Part shown: positions 16,287-27,064 of the stretch, one piece after another | Numbering within the stretch: position 1 is the stretch's first letter | Layout of the letters: the number at the start of each line of letters is the position of its first letter | Assembly: GCA_903887485.1 (NCBI GenBank) | Contig: CAISPV010000110.1 | Coordinates: 1 to 64,000, forward strand | From: an uncultured Desulfobulbaceae bacterium | Lineage (GTDB): Bacteria; Desulfobacterota; Desulfobulbia; Desulfobulbales; Desulfocapsaceae | Direction of reading: 5' to 3' | Length of the DNA stretch: 64,000 nucleotides | The notes under the pieces: model-generated | Databases searched by the model: none | The model's input: only the letters and a program-made list of their open reading frames with translations | What the model was told of the DNA's origin: nothing | Made by a program: the position numbers and the translations under genes

Positions 16287-16330
16287 AAAAAGCCTTCATG
16301 CTGACATTTTTGTCGGTTTGAAGGCTTTTA
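16287..16330. terminator. bidirectional hairpin terminator
   Basis: The arms 'aaaagccttca' and 'tgaaggctttt' flank an inner loop that itself holds a short TGAC/GTCGG stem. A/T runs on both sides suit termination from either direction. It sits between the convergent cyclase gene and the Lgt-like gene. Confidence 0.75.
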
Positions 16331-16342
16331 TGCTTTTTGCAA

Positions 16343-17392
16343 TTACAGACTTTCCCGGACCAGTTGAAAGGAGAGGGTGGAACGAGTGACGGTACTGCGG
16401 CCAAAAATGACGAAAAAGAGCAGCCACAACAGTTGCAGACCAAGAAGCAGGCCGGGCTGCCAGAGGAGACCCAGTCCCAGGCCCACGACCGGAACAGCCA
16501 GGGGGGCCGGAATGAGCAGGGCGATGATCAGGATATACATAACTGCTACTCCGCCCATTTTCTGGTAGGCGGAGATCCGGGCAAATCCGCGGAAGTCGGC
16601 GCGCCATGTCTCCGAAAAGATCCGCCACAGTTGACTGACGGTGATGGAGAGAACGAGCGCGGCCAGGAAATGACCGCGAAGAAAGAGAAAACTGGCGACG
16701 GTGGCGGTCAGGCAGTAGAGGATGCTGGTGATGGCTTGGATCGGGATCAATGGCTCGCCCGCCAGTTGTCCTTCGTAGACCGCCTTTTTCGTCGCCCCCA
16801 GAAAAATGAAGGCGCTCCGGGCAAAGAGGAACTGGAGAAAAGGCGAGCACTCCTTGAGCGGTTTGCCGTAACAGCAGCCGAAGCTGATGCAGCCCAGGCG
16901 GCCCAGACCTTCGCCCAGGGTATAGGCAATGGTCATAGCCGTAAGCACCGGTAGCATCGGCAGCCAGCAGGGCAAGACAAGGTCTGTTACCCGTTCTGCC
17001 AGCAGGATGGCCCAGGGGGCGATGAGCATCCCGACAAAGGAGGCCCCGCCGATGGTGAAGGTGTGGCGTTTTTTTTCGACCAGGATGGCGACGATCCGGG
17101 CGGCGGGGATGCTGACGGTCAGGATCATGGCAATGGCGAGCAGGCCCCCGATCAGCGACACCCTGGCCGCGCCAAGAAGGATCAGCAGTAGGCAGAGGGC
17201 CAGAAACTGGCTGGTGGCGATAAAAAAACCATAAAAAGTAAGGTTGACCCCGCGCCAGAGGCCATCCTCCCGCTTCTGCAAGGGGATGGCGGCCAGCATC
17301 TGCCAGCGTTCTCCGGGAAGGTGGATGCAGCCCCAGGCCAGAAGGATGCCCAGCAGTACTATCATCCCGGTCAAAAAAATAAGATCATTCAT
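16343..17392 (-). CDS. Lgt-like (prolipoprotein diacylglyceryl transferase family) integral membrane protein
   Basis: Protein of 349 residues with about nine or ten hydrophobic helices. The central motif GEGLGRLGCISFGCCYGKP corresponds to the GR-x-x-C/N...G signature of the Lgt family, but it has the GCCYG form found in Lgt-like paralogues rather than the standard NFxNxExxG loop. It also has a long C-terminal hydrophobic region. It is last in a three-gene run: its ATG overlaps the decarboxylase stop (ATGA at 17389-17392). It may transfer a phospholipid-derived group to an unknown acceptor. I would not call it the housekeeping lgt. Confidence 0.72.
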   Translation of the reverse strand: MNDLIFLTGMIVLLGILLAWGCIHLPGERWQMLAAIPLQKREDGLWRGVNLTFYGFFIATSQFLALCLLLILLGAARVSLIGGLLAIAMILTVSIPAARIVAILVEKKRHTFTIGGASFVGMLIAPWAILLAERVTDLVLPCWLPMLPVLTAMTIAYTLGEGLGRLGCISFGCCYGKPLKECSPFLQFLFARSAFIFLGATKKAVYEGQLAGEPLIPIQAITSILYCLTATVASFLFLRGHFLAALVLSITVSQLWRIFSETWRADFRGFARISAYQKMGGVAVMYILIIALLIPAPLAVPVVGLGLGLLWQPGLLLGLQLLWLLFFVIFGRSTVTRSTLSFQLVRESL

Positions 17393-18456
17393 CGATTGTT
17401 CTCCAATAGTGGGTTGGCCAGCTTCTCCCGCCGCCAGGCCAGGGGCGAGCGGAGACGGATATCGGTTTCAACCAGCGGTCTCCCCGAATCGCTGGCGAAA
17501 CGGCTGGTGACGTCATGGCGCCGCGAGTTGACGACAAGATCGGGGGCAAAGTTGATCCTCCCCGGCTGGAAGAGAAGGACATCGGTTGAGCTGCCGGGCC
17601 GGTACAGGCTCTTGGGGCAGCCCTTCCTGACCATGAGACCGGGCCGGACCGGTTGGGGATCGACATAGCCTTCCCTGCTGTAGGCCTGGACGATATCGCC
17701 GATCATCAAGGCAACGATTTCCACCATGGCGACCAGCCCCACCCGGGAGCCGCCCTCCACATCGGTATCGATCACCGTCACCACCCGCCGGTTTTTGGAG
17801 TAGAGGGAGGCGACGGCGATAAAGGCCAGGGGGTTGCAGGAGTGATAGCAGCCATCGACCTCATAGATCGCCGTCACCCGGCCAGAGACCGGCAGATGGT
17901 TGTAGTGGTATTTGTCCGGGGTAAGCCGGCAGACCGCAAAATCGCCGCCGTGAAAATGGGAGGGCCAGAGGCTGTCGCTGCCCAGCAGTTCCTTGATGTC
18001 AAAGAATTTATCCTTGATAAAGAGGGCGGAGCTCTCAGCAAAGGAGCCGATCAGGAGCCGGGCGTCAGCCGGCGAGACAATGACTGCCGGATCCTCATCC
18101 ATCGGCCGCAACTCCCAGTAACGGATCTGCCGCTCAAAGATCCGGCGCATGGTCGAGTAGTAGCCCGGCGGTTGGAGGCATTCCTGCCAGTCAATGCCGA
18201 GGCGGGCAAAAACCTGCTCTGCCGGGCGACGGTGCCCCCCAGGCCGGTCGTAATGGGAAAAGGCGAGGAGGCTTGACATCCTGGCCGAGGTCAGGGCCCG
18301 GAACAGGGTCGGGGCGCTTTCCCGCAGCCTGTTATAGAGAAAGGCGACCGCCCGGTCAGCGATCAGTTTTTCGGTGACGATCCGGCCTGAAGCGCGATCG
18401 ACATACTGGTGGGGGATGGGAGCAATCATGGTTCTATAATTGCTCCTGTTGTTCAT
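17389..18456 (-). CDS. phosphatidylserine decarboxylase homologue
   Basis: Member of the PSD family, which converts phosphatidylserine to phosphatidylethanolamine using a self-generated pyruvoyl group. Visible hallmarks are the His-containing DKYHYNHLPVSGRV segment, the GYYSTMRRIFERQI N-terminal region and the processing site RPGSSTDVLLF (Gly-Ser cleavage). At ~355 residues it resembles the long PSD-like proteins more than compact PSD. The start is either 18456, which overlaps the upstream stop, or 18429, which has AGGAG 12 nt upstream. It is coupled to an unknown 784-aa gene and an Lgt-like gene, so it may act on a special lipid or carrier rather than in bulk PE synthesis. Confidence 0.88.
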   Translation of the reverse strand: MNNRSNYRTMIAPIPHQYVDRASGRIVTEKLIADRAVAFLYNRLRESAPTLFRALTSARMSSLLAFSHYDRPGGHRRPAEQVFARLGIDWQECLQPPGYYSTMRRIFERQIRYWELRPMDEDPAVIVSPADARLLIGSFAESSALFIKDKFFDIKELLGSDSLWPSHFHGGDFAVCRLTPDKYHYNHLPVSGRVTAIYEVDGCYHSCNPLAFIAVASLYSKNRRVVTVIDTDVEGGSRVGLVAMVEIVALMIGDIVQAYSREGYVDPQPVRPGLMVRKGCPKSLYRPGSSTDVLLFQPGRINFAPDLVVNSRRHDVTSRFASDSGRPLVETDIRLRSPLAWRREKLANPLLENNR

Positions 18457-20788
18457 GGTGGATGACGGCCAGACTCACCTGGATGAGCTGCTGGAGCCGC
18501 TCAGGCAAGACTGTCTCATCAAGAATCGCTTCCGTCTCTTCCTCGACCAGGGCCGCAGCGGACCCTTCCCGACCAAGACCGGACATGATCTGGCGAAGGT
18601 GCGGATCACCGAGCCCTTCCAGGCGCCTGCAGTCTTCAACCAGGACCTGGAGTCCTTCCCGTGTCTGCTCTCTCTTCAAGGTGGTGCGATAATAGCGTTC
18701 GGTGGCGCTGTTAAAACAGTCCGCCGGCGTCTTCTCGGGCCGGGACCGGGAGTGCGATTCGGCCATGGCCCCTTTGACCACTCGGTTCAGGGCCGAGGCG
18801 CTTGGATCGCTGAGGCGGTGCCGCAGCTCCTCAATGGTCGCCGCCACCCCCAGCTCCTCAATCAGGTCACGCCCCTCACTCTCGATAATCTCCAACAGGG
18901 CCAGCTGGTAATCATGGACCTTGACCCGGATGTATCCCTTGTAGCGACCGCTGTGGCGCTGGGTTTTGACATGACTGAGGATCTTGCGGAGGAAGCGGTT
19001 GGCGGTGTCGGCCCTGACAAAGAAGGTGGGGATGCCGATGGCCGCGGCAAAGAAGATCTGCCGCCGTTCACTTTCCACCGGGGGCTGGTCGGGGATGTCG
19101 CTGTGACGCACCCGTTCCAGGGTGATGGTGCGGTAGGCTAGGGCGGTAATCAGGTTCTGCATGTCAATGGCCCCGGCCATATCAGCAAGCAGGCTCGGGA
19201 ACAGGGAATAGCTGCGGCCCTCGAAACCCGAATAGCCCATGGTACTGAATTCCCGCTGGCGATAGGGGAGATAGATGGACATGCGCTGGTCGAAGATCCC
19301 GAGTTCGGTCAGCTCCTGCTTGAGCCGGAGCTGGTTGCCGGGCTGGCCGTTGAGGGCCGGGCAGCTCTCGGTGGAGAGCAGGGTCACCAGGTAGTCGATC
19401 AACCGGAAGTCCGGGACCAGATCGCCATGCAGGCGCAGGCAGCGGGCCAGGAGCTGATCCAGCCAGTGCGGGCCGAAGGGGGTAAAGGAATAGCCCAGGA
19501 AACGGAGACTGGCCTTTTTCTGCCAGCGCCGCCAGAGCATGCGCAGATGGGTGTAGTCGAGTTCATGGGGGAGAAAACCCAGAACCCTTTCCGGGTGGAA
19601 GTCGGCGAAATCCAGACGATAAGGGGCGGCGGTGTAGGTGCCGACAAAGAGCGGCAGGAAATGTTCAACGACCTTGATCGCCAGATCGCCCAGGTATTTT
19701 TCAACCCCGGGAGTGAAGCCCGATTGGGGATCAGCTGCCAGCCCGGAAAGGAGTTGGCTGCCGAGGGAGACGTGGGTGCCGTTATTGGCCAGGCAGGTGT
19801 TGGAGGTGTTGGGCAGGACCACCAGGTTGTTGGTGATGATCCCGGCGTCCTTCAGTTTGCTGATGGTGTTGAGCTGGCTGTGGGAGAGGGTCCGGTGGCA
19901 GAGGGCCATGTATTGGTGCTTCTCTTCCCCCCGGTCCCAGCCGGAGAGGCAGGGACTCATGAACAGGTGGCGGTAGAAGCCATCCGGGACGATCTCGTTG
20001 AGCTTCTTCTGGCGGTGCGGGGCGTGCGGGGCGTTGTAGAGCAGACATCGCTGCCCCGACTCCACCAGTCCCAGCTTGGTGTTGGCGTACTGGATCAGAA
20101 GCTGACTGAGGAGAAAACTGCGGGCGGTCTCGCGGGCGGCCAGACGGCCGACCTGCCCCTTACCGGCCACCGGGATGGTGAAGGAGAGGATCTCCGGTGA
20201 GGTGTTGTCACTCAGAAAATGGGAGAGCAGATCGCGGCCGGTCTTGTAGATGACCGGTGAGATTGAGGCGGCAGAGCCAATGGCGTCCGCCAGGGCCAGT
20301 TTCAACAGATAACTGACCGGCAATCGCAGCCAGGACACGCCCTTTTCGGTAAAGAAGAAACGGTGCAGGTCGCTGCGTCTGGGGCCATCAGGCTCCCCCT
20401 TGTCGGCCAGGAGATCGTGATGAAGGATCTTGCGGGCATAATCACTTAACCGTTCTTCCTGGAAACGGACCCAGCTGTTCTCCCAGACCCCGGTCTCGTT
20501 GTGGTCGAGAAAATTGCGCAGGGAGTCGATCCGCCAGGGAGGGAGATCACCACGCCCTACCCGTTTGACCGTATTGCTGAAAAAACTCGACCCGCGAATG
20601 GCGAGGGGAAGATCGACCGTCCGCTGGTCGCCTTCGACCGCGACCTGGAGCTCGTATTCCATGCCGGTGCTGGTATCCCCGGCGGCAAAGGGTTGTGAGC
20701 TGAACGTCCCAATGCGTCGGGCAAACAGGGAGGCCTCGGCCTCAATGTCAGCTTCGTATCTGTTTTCGTAGGTATGGAGGAGTTTCAT
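18434..20788 (-). CDS. conserved protein of unknown function, 784 aa, first gene of a lipid-type cluster
   Basis: Large soluble protein with no signal peptide and no transmembrane helix. I do not recognise the family. The N-terminus contains GMEYELQVAVEG, which faintly recalls the glutamate-binding strand of carboxylate-amine ligases (GCS2). A middle segment (NNGTHVSLGSQLLSG; YNAPHAPHR) has clustered His/Asn that could be catalytic. The C-terminal quarter is charged and helical. The stop lies inside the start region of the phosphatidylserine decarboxylase gene, and that gene overlaps the Lgt-like gene, so the three are one transcript. The context points to envelope lipid chemistry. The carboxylate-amine ligase idea is a guess from one motif. 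Confidence 0.85.
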   Translation of the reverse strand: MKLLHTYENRYEADIEAEASLFARRIGTFSSQPFAAGDTSTGMEYELQVAVEGDQRTVDLPLAIRGSSFFSNTVKRVGRGDLPPWRIDSLRNFLDHNETGVWENSWVRFQEERLSDYARKILHHDLLADKGEPDGPRRSDLHRFFFTEKGVSWLRLPVSYLLKLALADAIGSAASISPVIYKTGRDLLSHFLSDNTSPEILSFTIPVAGKGQVGRLAARETARSFLLSQLLIQYANTKLGLVESGQRCLLYNAPHAPHRQKKLNEIVPDGFYRHLFMSPCLSGWDRGEEKHQYMALCHRTLSHSQLNTISKLKDAGIITNNLVVLPNTSNTCLANNGTHVSLGSQLLSGLAADPQSGFTPGVEKYLGDLAIKVVEHFLPLFVGTYTAAPYRLDFADFHPERVLGFLPHELDYTHLRMLWRRWQKKASLRFLGYSFTPFGPHWLDQLLARCLRLHGDLVPDFRLIDYLVTLLSTESCPALNGQPGNQLRLKQELTELGIFDQRMSIYLPYRQREFSTMGYSGFEGRSYSLFPSLLADMAGAIDMQNLITALAYRTITLERVRHSDIPDQPPVESERRQIFFAAAIGIPTFFVRADTANRFLRKILSHVKTQRHSGRYKGYIRVKVHDYQLALLEIIESEGRDLIEELGVAATIEELRHRLSDPSASALNRVVKGAMAESHSRSRPEKTPADCFNSATERYYRTTLKREQTREGLQVLVEDCRRLEGLGDPHLRQIMSGLGREGSAAALVEEETEAILDETVLPERLQQLIQVSLAVIHHEQQEQL

Positions 20789-20883: not shown

Positions 20884-21077
20884 GAGAGTAAAATTAAATC
20901 TTGCCACAAAACAGGATAAAGCATAGCTTTACCTATGGACAATTTTTTAACCTTATTGTGGATAGAATGACTCGACTCTCAAGAATATCTCCAGCAGGCG
21001 TACCGGTTCATGTCATCCAGCGTGGAAACAACCGGCAGGTTTGCTTTGTTTCCGACGAAGATCACGGAGCCTATGTA
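20884..21077 (+). pseudogene. truncated REP-associated tyrosine transposase (5' relic)
   Basis: The frame from 20967 reads TRLSRISPAG, VPVHVIQRGNNRQVCF and VSDEDHGAY, matching the N-terminus of the full transposase at 43978-44766. Homology stops abruptly at ~21074. The preceding 'agagtaaaattaaatcttgc' is the same 5' flank as in the complete element. The rest of 20789-21177 holds nothing I can identify. Confidence 0.85.
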
Positions 21078-21177
21078 AATTGCGATCATATTCCCCGAAA
21101 GAAAGATATTCTGTACCGGGAATTGGCATACTGCACTGTTGGGCACAAAATAAACCCTGAGTTACAGTGAGATTTCC

Positions 21178-21615
21178 ATGAAAGTTTATCTTGACAACTG
21201 TTGCTTTAATCGACCATATGACGATCAATCTCATCTGCGGATAAGGCTTGAATCAGAAGCAAAATTGAGAATTCAAGAAGAAATACGCGCTGGTGTGTAC
21301 AAACTCATCTGGTCGTACATCTTGGATTATGAAAACAGTAAAAATCCTTTCATAGAGAGAAAACAGCAAATTGCCAAGTGGCGGACGTACGCAGTTGAAG
21401 ACATTCAAGAAAGTGTCGAAATTCTTAGTTCGGCAAGAATGCTTCAAGGGCATGGAATAAGAAAGATCGATTCCTTGCATATAGCATGTGCCATTCATGC
21501 AGGGGCAGGTTTTTTTCTGACAACCGATGATGGAATCTTAAAAAAGGTTACACCACTTCTCTCAAACATCTGTATCACTGACCCCATAGACTTTATCAAA
21601 GAGGTGTTGCTATGA
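21178..21615 (+). CDS. PIN-domain protein (putative VapC-like ribonuclease toxin)
   Basis: 145-residue PIN fold. The first acidic residue is in MKVYLDNCCFNRPYDD, the middle one in RKIDSLHIACAI, and the C-terminal one in FFLTTDDGILKK. These three acidic positions are the metal-binding set of PIN ribonucleases. The stop overlaps the next start (ATGA at 21612), coupling it to a 66-aa partner. The order is toxin first, the reverse of classic vapBC. Base composition is more AT-rich than in the neighbours, and the pair sits next to a transposase relic, which suggests transfer. Confidence 0.82.
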   Translation: MKVYLDNCCFNRPYDDQSHLRIRLESEAKLRIQEEIRAGVYKLIWSYILDYENSKNPFIERKQQIAKWRTYAVEDIQESVEILSSARMLQGHGIRKIDSLHIACAIHAGAGFFLTTDDGILKKVTPLLSNICITDPIDFIKEVLL

Positions 21616-22329: not shown

Positions 22330-23391
22330 ATGGCATTTGTAACTCCTCGTTTTCAAAAGCATGAAATTAATCGTGCTGGCAAAATATTATCGTCTACTGA
22401 TCCTTCTGATAATTTTATAGATTGGTTTTGGGCACATGAAGTCCTTGCCAATTGGCGTGCTTGCCATGGTTATCCGATTAATACATTCCAAGCACTTCTT
22501 AGGAATAGAGTCAAAAAACTTTGTAAAAATGGAATTGTCGCCCAAAGGCTTAAACGGGCACCATCAGTTGTATCAAAACTTAAGAGGTTTTCATCAATGA
22601 ATCTTGCACAAATGCAGGATATTGGTGGCCTTAGAGCTGTTGTAGAAACAATTGCACATGTGCGTAAACTTGAAAATTTATATAAAAATAGCAGATTTAA
22701 TCACAAACTTCTTTCGTCGAAAGATTATATAGCCACGCCGAAAAAAGACGGATATCGCAGTGTTCATCTTGTTTATAAATATTTCAACGACGGTGCTCCA
22801 GAATTTAATGAATTGTTGCTTGAAATCCAATTAAGGACAAAATTGCAACACTCTTGGGCAACGGCTGTAGAGACAATGGGAACTTTTCTCGGCCAAGCCC
22901 TCAAGTCAGGCCAAGGGGAAAGACCGTGGCATGAATTTTTCGAAATTGCCAGTGCTGCGTTCACTCATATTGAGGGGACTGAACCTATCCCTGGTTTCGA
23001 GTCATTATCTAAGGATGATATACTGTTACTTCTAGATAAAGCTGAAAATGATCTTCATGTTTTAAATAAACTTCAGGGGTTTTCTATTGCTGCAAACAAG
23101 ATTATTGCCGCGAAGGGCTCCGGTAGCTATCATCTTGTCATTTTGGATTCTTTAAATCGAACTGTCTCAATTAAACCATACCCAAAAACCCAACTTGAAC
23201 AGGCAAGCATCGAATATGCGAAAGTTGAAGAGCGTGGTCAAAAAGGAGAACCAATCGAAGCAGTTTTGGTTTCCGCTGGTCCCATTGAGGCTTTAAAAAA
23301 GGCTTATCCAAATTACTTTCTTGATACACATGAATTTGTGATTCAAATAAAACGTTTACTTAAACGGCCGAAAATGTCGGATGCGCGTTAG
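22330..23391 (+). CDS. RelA/SpoT synthetase-domain protein (small alarmone synthetase-like)
   Basis: Protein of 353 residues with the nucleotide-pyrophosphotransferase core only and no HD hydrolase, TGS or ACT domains. Synthetase motifs are visible: LAQMQDIGGLRAVVE (the D-x-x-G-x-R step), TPKKDGYRSVHLVYKY (G-Y-R/Q-S-x-H) and LLEIQLRTKLQHSWATAVE. The ~130-residue C-terminal region is unassigned (GSGSYHLVILD, THEFVIQIKRLL). The coding sequence is clearly AT-rich, unlike the flanking GC-rich genes, and it lies between relics, so it was acquired recently. Proteins of this class make (p)ppGpp or related nucleotides; some are toxSAS toxins. No antitoxin is evident beside it. Confidence 0.85.
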   Translation: MAFVTPRFQKHEINRAGKILSSTDPSDNFIDWFWAHEVLANWRACHGYPINTFQALLRNRVKKLCKNGIVAQRLKRAPSVVSKLKRFSSMNLAQMQDIGGLRAVVETIAHVRKLENLYKNSRFNHKLLSSKDYIATPKKDGYRSVHLVYKYFNDGAPEFNELLLEIQLRTKLQHSWATAVETMGTFLGQALKSGQGERPWHEFFEIASAAFTHIEGTEPIPGFESLSKDDILLLLDKAENDLHVLNKLQGFSIAANKIIAAKGSGSYHLVILDSLNRTVSIKPYPKTQLEQASIEYAKVEERGQKGEPIEAVLVSAGPIEALKKAYPNYFLDTHEFVIQIKRLLKRPKMSDAR

Positions 23392-25045: not shown

Positions 25046-27064
25046 TTATCCTTCCTGTTTTGGCTCGGGTGCCGTGTCTCGTCCGGTTGGCAGCACGTGG
25101 GCCAATCGCAACTCACGGAGCATGGCCCGCTTCTTGGCTTGGTGTTCCTGCATTCGACGCAGGATATCGTCCAGAACCCGCACGGCGCTGACCACATAGG
25201 GGCCCTTGTTGAGCATGACACACTCGGCACGGTCCCCCATCGCCGCGTCCGTGATCTCGGCACGCGATGGCATTCCCTCCTTGGCCAGGGTTTCTAATAC
25301 CTGCGTTGCCCAGATGACAGGGACGTGGGCCGCTTCACAGATCCAGAGAATCTCTTCCTGAACTTCCGCCAGGCGCTCGAACCCGCATTCGACAGCCAGA
25401 TCTCCCCGGGCGATCATCACCCCGCAACAAGGCGCCCGCATGGCCATCAATAACATGTCAGGCAAGTTGTCAAAGCCGCGCCGTGTCTCGATCTTCAGGA
25501 CAATGGCTGGCTGTCGATCCCCTAACCGCGCCAGGTGTTGCTGGAGGGACTCCACGTCCCGGGCACTGTTGGCAAAGGACAACTCGACGATGTCGGCATG
25601 CCGGGCCACGAAGGCCAGATCCTCGAGGTCCTTGGCAGTCGTGGCTGCCAGGCGAAGGTCGCTCTCGGGAAGGTTGATCCCTTTATCGGATGATAGCTTC
25701 CCGCCGCTTACGCGGGTCTGGGTGATCCGGACAAGAACCCGGCTGCTGTCAACCTTCTCGATCACGCCGCCGATCTTGCCGTCATCAAACCAGATTGACT
25801 CCCCTGGCCGGACGTCGTCGAACACCTCTGGAATCGTGCAACCGATAGTGGCAGGGGTCAGCAATTGTCCCTCACTGTCCCAGATTGCGGGATACCCTGG
25901 TGTGAGGTCGCGGGTCAGGATCAGAAGGTCTCCTTGTTGCAGGGAAATGGCGTTTTTACCGAGCGGCAACTTGCCGACCTGAGCCTTGCGCTCATCCCCT
26001 TTGGTTCCGGTCGTTTTTTGCAGGACGGTGCCGGGGACAACATAAGTCGTCTGGGTCGCTTCTGCCCAGCATCCGCTGTCCATGGCGGCAACGACTGTAA
26101 AAGTTCGTTTGGCATCCCTGGCATCGGTGAGTTTTAATTGTTCACCGGAGTGCAGGCGAGCCAGCCACGTCGCCGGTACGGGAAGGGAGGCAGCCGCCGG
26201 CGAGGGAGGCAACTGGGGAGAATTCTCCGGGGTCAGCCATACCCGTGCAGGGGCGGTGACCCGTCCGTAGATATCACGGCAGGGACGAATTCTGGCCACT
26301 GCCGGACCCGGCTCAAGCGGCCCGGTGCGCAGCTTTGGCCCTGCCAGATCCATGACGATCCGGCAGGATCGCCCTAGTGATTGCTCGGCCCGTCTCAGAT
26401 GCTCAATCATTTGCAGCCACGCTGCAGCGTCGTCGTGGGCGCAATTGATGCGCATGCAATCCATACCTTGCTGGAGCAGGTCGTGAACGAGGGTGAAATT
26501 ATCCGCTGCTTCACTCGGCATGGTGACCATGATCCGGACCCCGCGTCCGGGGATGGCGGGGCCGAAAAGGCATTCGGTGTGTTCGGCAAGGAGTCGTTCA
26601 CCGTTGGCAAAATCAACAACATCGGCCTCTTTCGAGGGTGGTTGCCAGGAACGATGCATCAGGCGGTGCAGCACTCCTAAAACTGCGTCGACTGTAACCA
26701 GGACGTGTGTCTCGGCGCGCCCGAGTGAGGACAGTCCCAACGCGGCCAACTGCAGTTGCAACGGCCGGAGGTCGTGACACCTGAGGGCAAGGTAATGCAG
26801 GAGATTGCGGGCGCTCTCTTGATGGTTGCTGTGAACCTCATTGAGACGTAGGTGGGATCTGGCCATCTCAGCAACCATATTCACCCGGATGGCCGTGAGT
26901 TCCCTGATAATACGATCGATATCCGCGATGCCCAGATAAGCACTGTGGGCGGTATCTTCAGTTATCACGGTCATTGTTGCCAATGACCTCATGCCCCAGG
27001 TGAGGCGCGCTATTTTTCTGTATCTTCTCCACCTGATTGGTAAGTGATGATTCCTTCTTCTCAT
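25046..27064 (-). CDS. atypical pyruvate kinase-family protein with N-terminal extension
   Basis: The barrel domain is recognisable by RINCAHDDAAAW, IVMDLAGPKLRTG, VLKIETRRGFDNL, MIARGDLAVECG and ATQVLETLAKEGMPSRAEITD. Differences from standard PykF/PykA are clear. About 170 extra N-terminal residues carry a helical region (SARNLLHYLALR). The B-domain region is long. The usual MLSxETA loop reads MLNKGPY. The protein stops shortly after the barrel, lacking most of the C-terminal allosteric domain. This matches a known but poorly characterised pyruvate-kinase subgroup. The start is uncertain: ATG 26974 (MTVITEDTAHS) fits the domain boundary better than 27064, and neither has a strong ribosome site. 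Catalytic activity is plausible but unproven. Confidence 0.85.
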   Translation of the reverse strand: MRRRNHHLPIRWRRYRKIARLTWGMRSLATMTVITEDTAHSAYLGIADIDRIIRELTAIRVNMVAEMARSHLRLNEVHSNHQESARNLLHYLALRCHDLRPLQLQLAALGLSSLGRAETHVLVTVDAVLGVLHRLMHRSWQPPSKEADVVDFANGERLLAEHTECLFGPAIPGRGVRIMVTMPSEAADNFTLVHDLLQQGMDCMRINCAHDDAAAWLQMIEHLRRAEQSLGRSCRIVMDLAGPKLRTGPLEPGPAVARIRPCRDIYGRVTAPARVWLTPENSPQLPPSPAAASLPVPATWLARLHSGEQLKLTDARDAKRTFTVVAAMDSGCWAEATQTTYVVPGTVLQKTTGTKGDERKAQVGKLPLGKNAISLQQGDLLILTRDLTPGYPAIWDSEGQLLTPATIGCTIPEVFDDVRPGESIWFDDGKIGGVIEKVDSSRVLVRITQTRVSGGKLSSDKGINLPESDLRLAATTAKDLEDLAFVARHADIVELSFANSARDVESLQQHLARLGDRQPAIVLKIETRRGFDNLPDMLLMAMRAPCCGVMIARGDLAVECGFERLAEVQEEILWICEAAHVPVIWATQVLETLAKEGMPSRAEITDAAMGDRAECVMLNKGPYVVSAVRVLDDILRRMQEHQAKKRAMLRELRLAHVLPTGRDTAPEPKQEG

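Follow-up and report, generated by a model that had tools for sequence, protein, structure and literature searches.

The window, by which we mean the whole stretch of 64,000 nucleotides that was analysed, carries three coupled genes on the minus strand at 16343-20788, encoding in order a predicted ligase, a relative of phosphatidylserine decarboxylase (PSD) and a relative of Lgt. The preliminary description had marked out this three-gene module, a delimitation that stands, as the same order and strand recur in 42 of 42 uncut loci elsewhere. The features of the locus are the following:

18434-20788, minus strand: 784-aa predicted ligase (GS/GCL fold) without Pfam or NCBIfam family
20648-20665, minus strand: GMEYEL, ligase residues 42-47, predicted GxExE metal/ATP motif; G42, E44 and E46 conserved to at least 90% among 75 sequences
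20477-20485, minus strand: WEN, ligase residues 102-104, candidate second acidic site (role inferred); at least 90% conserved
19772-19786, minus strand: NNGTH, ligase residues 335-339, candidate catalytic His motif; N335, N336, G337 and H339 invariant in 75 sequences
19214-19228, minus strand: GFEGR, ligase residues 521-525, candidate ExR motif; G521, E523 and R525 invariant in 75 sequences
17389-18456, minus strand: PSD-like pyruvoyl decarboxylase, extra paralogue, 355 aa, PF02666
17584-17595, minus strand: GSST, PSD-like residues 288-291, self-cleavage motif; LGST variant with one extra residue
16343-17392, minus strand: Lgt-like membrane protein, extra paralogue, 349 aa, PF01790
16865-16903, minus strand: GRLGCISFGCCYG, Lgt-like residues 164-176, altered form of the Lgt signature (in E. 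coli GRLGNFINGELWG); C168, C173, C174 and G176 invariant in 51 sequences
16287-16330, strand not applicable: hairpin, probable terminator (-19.6 kcal/mol, z -5.6); not in the consensus list

The genes had been described as overlapping, which is right for the PSD-like and Lgt-like genes, sharing an ATGA over 4 nt, while the 23-nt overlap of ligase and PSD as called by ORF is probably a start-site artefact. Since PSD homologues begin near 'HQYIER', the true PSD start is likely Met10 (18429), 4 nt past the ligase stop, and AGGAG, a ribosome-binding site, lies ahead of it inside the last ligase codons. The hairpin is located 3' of the last, Lgt-like gene, between convergent genes. A short remnant upstream of the module, at 20965-21110 (plus strand), resembles a REP-associated transposase (ISPAGVPVHVIQRGNNRQ). 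The window also holds a small PIN-like ORF (21178-21615) followed downstream by a 353-aa frame at 22330-23391 (plus strand) that resembles a stand-alone RelA/SpoT-type nucleotidyltransferase, and a 672-aa protein encoded at 25046-27064 (minus strand), parts of which look like pyruvate kinase and whose N-terminal region is unusual.

The distribution of the module was followed in a first set of 42 loci with relatives of the 784-aa protein, obtained by an exact-peptide scan of 84,980 species, and in a sample of 395 genomes taken evenly across Desulfobacterota. Long relatives of the 784-aa protein occur in 44 of the 395 genomes; all three families are found together in 43 (about 1 in 9) and none of them in 350, the two remaining genomes being contig ends, of which one (G118) stops right upstream of the PSD and the other (G332) ends within the ligase. 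At all 43 loci not cut within the ligase, comprising 42 checked by HMM scan and the window itself, the other two genes accompany it with order and strand unchanged. Searched separately, the alignments of module-type Lgt and of module-type PSD returned 44 genomes each, the same set except for G118 and G332. At four loci of the first set (L004, L006, L008 and L013) the genes are not all adjacent, yet all three are in the genome. The trio had been read as one unit with the suggestion that its co-occurrence be checked across genomes, and over the 395 genomes the 784-aa protein, far from usually occurring alone, was never without the other two in the 43 uncut genomes: this is an obligate, co-inherited three-gene set. 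It is carried by 27 families of Desulfobacterota in a patchy manner, being absent from two genomes that belong to the same genus as the window, and no plasmid copy was found. Geomonas and Citrifermentans bremense are culturable organisms among its carriers. The named matches of the exact-peptide scan are all deltaproteobacterial-type, which, as the result of one thin scan beyond Desulfobacterota, suggests only compatibility with a restriction to the phylum. No literature on the trio was found in the open-licence papers searched.

The relationship of the 784-aa family to known enzymes is visible by structure only, sequence and profile searches being empty. The protein itself has zero Pfam or NCBIfam matches even at E<=1; among 37 aligned relatives no Pfam family is common to more than two (best E 0.04), and no GCL family is among the Pfam hits; the family has no match among PDB sequences. 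A glutamate-cysteine ligase proper was rejected on sequence, with an hhalign probability of 0.2% against E. coli GshA and no Pfam or NCBIfam match. An AlphaFold model built from 75 aligned sequences (pLDDT 93.3, pTM 0.94) supersedes an earlier one from 37 sequences whose central part was poor (pLDDT 78.5). When this model is compared by VIA-align, the best 28 PDB entries all belong to the GS superfamily (Z 6.1-16.7) and the next entry scores 2.9; the glutamate-cysteine ligases 3ln7 (Z 16.7) and 1va6 (Z 16.3) lead, followed by YbdK (1r8g, Z 15.8), Dop (5lrt, Z 14.9) and PafA (Z 14.6), plant and yeast ligases are also matched, and glutamine synthetases are found at Z 9.0 (1hto) and below. Foldseek puts the same enzymes on top, yet only at E 0.002-0.02. 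On the strength of the model, the protein is predicted to have the glutamine-synthetase/glutamate-cysteine-ligase fold and to be a new type of ATP-dependent ligase; because the fold is a shared one, it does not fix the substrates. We take GxExE, NGxH (NGxGxH in GS) and ExR to be the motifs that define the superfamily. In the model the core sheet's first strand (39-46) carries GMEYEL, the predicted GxExE motif, NNGTH overlaps strand 338-344 and GFEGR is on strand 521-527. The faint resemblance of GMEYEL to carboxylate-amine ligases noted at the outset has thus gained a structural footing, and the His/Asn-rich middle that was remarked on contains the invariant NNGTH. The structure prediction proposed at that stage brought the GS/GCL superfamily to the top and no unrelated enzyme class.

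Both partner proteins belong to recognizable families. The PSD-like protein matches PF02666 (E 8e-37; 127 bits, cut-off 22) and falls under all NCBIfam equivalog cut-offs for the PS-to-PE function (137 against 371 bits and 87.6 against 111.75 bits), so that PS is no more than a putative substrate. Its active site is predicted to be intact, as the catalytic residues D131, H184, H187 and S290 (equivalents of D90, H144, H147 and S254) are kept in 60 of 60 module PSDs. A second, short PSD adjoins PssA elsewhere in the window genome and represents a separate housekeeping Psd, and at least one further PSD is present in all 43 module genomes.

The Lgt-like protein matches PF01790 (E 1e-7; 32 bits, gathering cut-off 24.9) and finds no match among PDB sequences; a canonical Lgt is also encoded in the window genome. 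In comparison with E. coli Lgt it keeps Y26, R143, G154, R239, E243 and R246, residues whose roles have been described (PMC4728403; PMC8689077), and R143, R239, E243 and R246 are present in 50-51 of 51 module sequences. Across these 51 sequences His103 is replaced by Val or Ile, Asn146 and Glu151 by Cys, and Tyr235 by Thr or Ser, and C168, C173, C174 and G176 are invariant. The four replaced residues are required for lipoprotein modification by the E. coli enzyme (PMC4728403; PMC8689077), and because they are lost the module protein is probably not a lipoprotein Lgt. Lgt binds PG (PMC4728403), and judging from the residues, the handling of this donor looks kept and the acceptor chemistry changed.

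Apart from two kinds, a DksA-like gene at some of the loci and phosphate genes, no recurring neighbour of the module stands out. The former, a DksA/TraR-type zinc-finger gene, lies between the PSD and Lgt-like genes or just after them in many Syntrophia-type loci (L017:9459-9884, L036:9346-9771, L022:8931-9389); it was rejected as a fourth member of the module, being present in some loci only. With regard to the latter, 10 of the 43 module genomes, spread over ten families, have phoU no more than 10 kb from the ligase, where 0.36 would be expected (P ~2e-12), and an OlsF-like synthase lies within 20 kb of the module in five of the seven module genomes with the long form (P ~3e-9), both P values overstating independence since the loci are related by descent. 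Within 30 kb of the ligase phoU is found in 14 of the 43 genomes, and 33 of the 43 loci have none within 10 kb; for the housekeeping PSDs, none of 43 is within 30 kb of phoU. PhoB/PhoR-like genes adjoin the module in locus L144 and PstS is found in other loci, the identities of these and of PhoU having been checked; L004 has two two-component proteins and phoU between ligase and PSD, and in L008 and L013 the ligase is apart from its partners and still close to phoU. The module is therefore chromosomally linked to the phosphate-starvation locus, and its retention over ten families calls for an explanation. Upstream of the module, PhoB-box-like repeats are found in 25% of cases, the figure for other promoters being 11% (p 0.005), a weak signal. 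In the window there is no Pho-box-like site upstream of the module, and in its genome no pho genes are near the module, the one phoU lying at the edge of contig C54. Under phosphate limitation, D. alaskensis has been shown to replace most of its phospholipid by glyco- and ornithine lipids (PMC5193443).

The OlsF-like bifunctional acyltransferases near the module and phosphate genes (L129:13887-15737, L130:5843-7663, L132:7537-9318, L135:17022-18845, L025:1056-2957) score 381-427 bits, under the 620-bit equivalog cut-off, and may use an amino acid other than ornithine. In one of these loci (L132:10329-13551, genome G254), near the module, a CofD-like and a RimK-type ATP-grasp gene separate the OlsF-like gene from a PhoU-domain protein.

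We propose, with a probability of roughly 0.45, that the module is a lipid-remodelling pathway of phosphate limitation that yields a phosphorus-free stand-in for PE. The Lgt-like protein would take diacylglycerol off PG with release of glycerol phosphate, in the manner of Lgt, so that the lipid left would be phosphorus-free, and would pass the diacylglycerol to a small amino acid, the simplest choice being cysteine with its thiol as acceptor. Diacylglyceryl-cysteine resembles PS without its phosphate and would thus naturally suit a relative of PSD, which would decarboxylate such a diacylglyceryl-amino acid; with ATP, the ligase would then form an amide between the amine thus produced and the carboxylate in the side chain of glutamate or of an acid like it, the end product being a phosphorus-free aminolipid in the place of PE. 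Which acceptor and which carboxylate are used, and in what order the steps run, are guesses. Lgt works at the periplasmic face of the membrane, and PSD and ligase are expected on the cytoplasmic side, so that the proposed lipid would need flipping. The choice of a thiol acceptor is weakened by the loss in the module protein of His103, the proposed thiol base in Lgt (PMC4728403; PMC8689077). The wider claim that this is a new class of membrane lipid, a thioether- or ether-linked phosphorus-free PE analogue made from PG by a repurposed Lgt, a likewise repurposed PSD and a GS-fold ligase of a new family and induced by phosphate starvation, we regard as doubtful.

The preliminary description had instead envisaged a pathway that makes or transfers an amino-phospholipid. 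In such a scheme PSD would make PE from PS, the ligase would add a gamma-glutamyl or other group to the PE amine, and the Lgt-like protein would move diacylglyceryl or remodel the lipid. Ligases with the GS/GCL fold do join amines to glutamate, and the active site of the module PSD is intact; the binding of PG by Lgt (PMC4728403) agrees with this scheme too. Against this scheme, a separate PSD stands beside PssA in the window genome and every module genome has another PSD, and the phoU, pst, phoBR and OlsF-like linkage points to phosphate limitation, hence to a phosphorus-free lipid rather than an amino-phospholipid. What survives of the original idea is the co-inherited unit and the carboxylate-amine-ligase fold predicted for the 784-aa protein, and the phosphate in its product, against which the loss of essential Lgt residues also speaks, has become unlikely.

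Pyruvoyl decarboxylases act on free amino acids too, and the nearest solved structures to the 784-aa model are glutamate-cysteine ligases, which together could suggest a soluble thiol or amine metabolite, formed by gamma-glutamylcysteine-type chemistry and amino-acid decarboxylation, with the membrane protein as its transporter or exporter. Such a product is rather improbable given that PF02666 and PF01790 are families of lipid enzymes, that the PG-handling residues are conserved in the Lgt-like protein, and that the module is linked to OlsF-like genes and phoU. The presence of PafA and Dop among the fold matches (Z 14.6-14.9) could also point to protein or peptide modification, in which the Lgt-like protein would lipidate special substrates and the ligase would make isopeptide bonds like PafA; as no small-protein gene recurs beside the module, the Lgt residues required for lipoproteins are lost and a pyruvoyl decarboxylase has no obvious place there, we consider this very improbable.

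Under phosphate scarcity, many anaerobic bacteria of sediments and the subsurface must swap their phospholipids for other lipids, and the lipids of these bacteria have been identified only in part. If the phosphorus-free aminolipid proposed here exists, a pathway that co-occurs strictly and begins with an enzyme lacking a family name would offer a concrete genetic handle on one such lipid. The 784-aa family would also add a branch absent from Pfam to the GS superfamily, and relatives of Lgt and PSD have apparently been recruited out of their textbook roles. The predicted ligase shares with the superfamily of GCL, YbdK, Dop-PafA and GS its fold and the GxExE, NGxH and ExR motifs, but differs in having no recognizable sequence relation, long insertions and partner genes of its own. 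The module PSD resembles other members of PF02666 in its family match and conserved catalytic Asp, His and Ser, whereas its GSST with an insert, its sub-equivalog score and its being always extra to another PSD set it apart. Likewise, the module Lgt has the PF01790 match and the residues Y26, R143, G154, R239, E243 and R246 in common with Lgt, but His103, Asn146, Glu151 and Tyr235 are replaced and there are three invariant cysteines. None of the three enzymes is part of the known routes of lipid remodelling under phosphate limitation, namely the Agt glycolipids, OlsF ornithine lipids and BtaAB betaine lipids, whereas the linkage of the module to pho and OlsF-like genes, together with the precedent of D. 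alaskensis (PMC5193443), is what it has in common with them.
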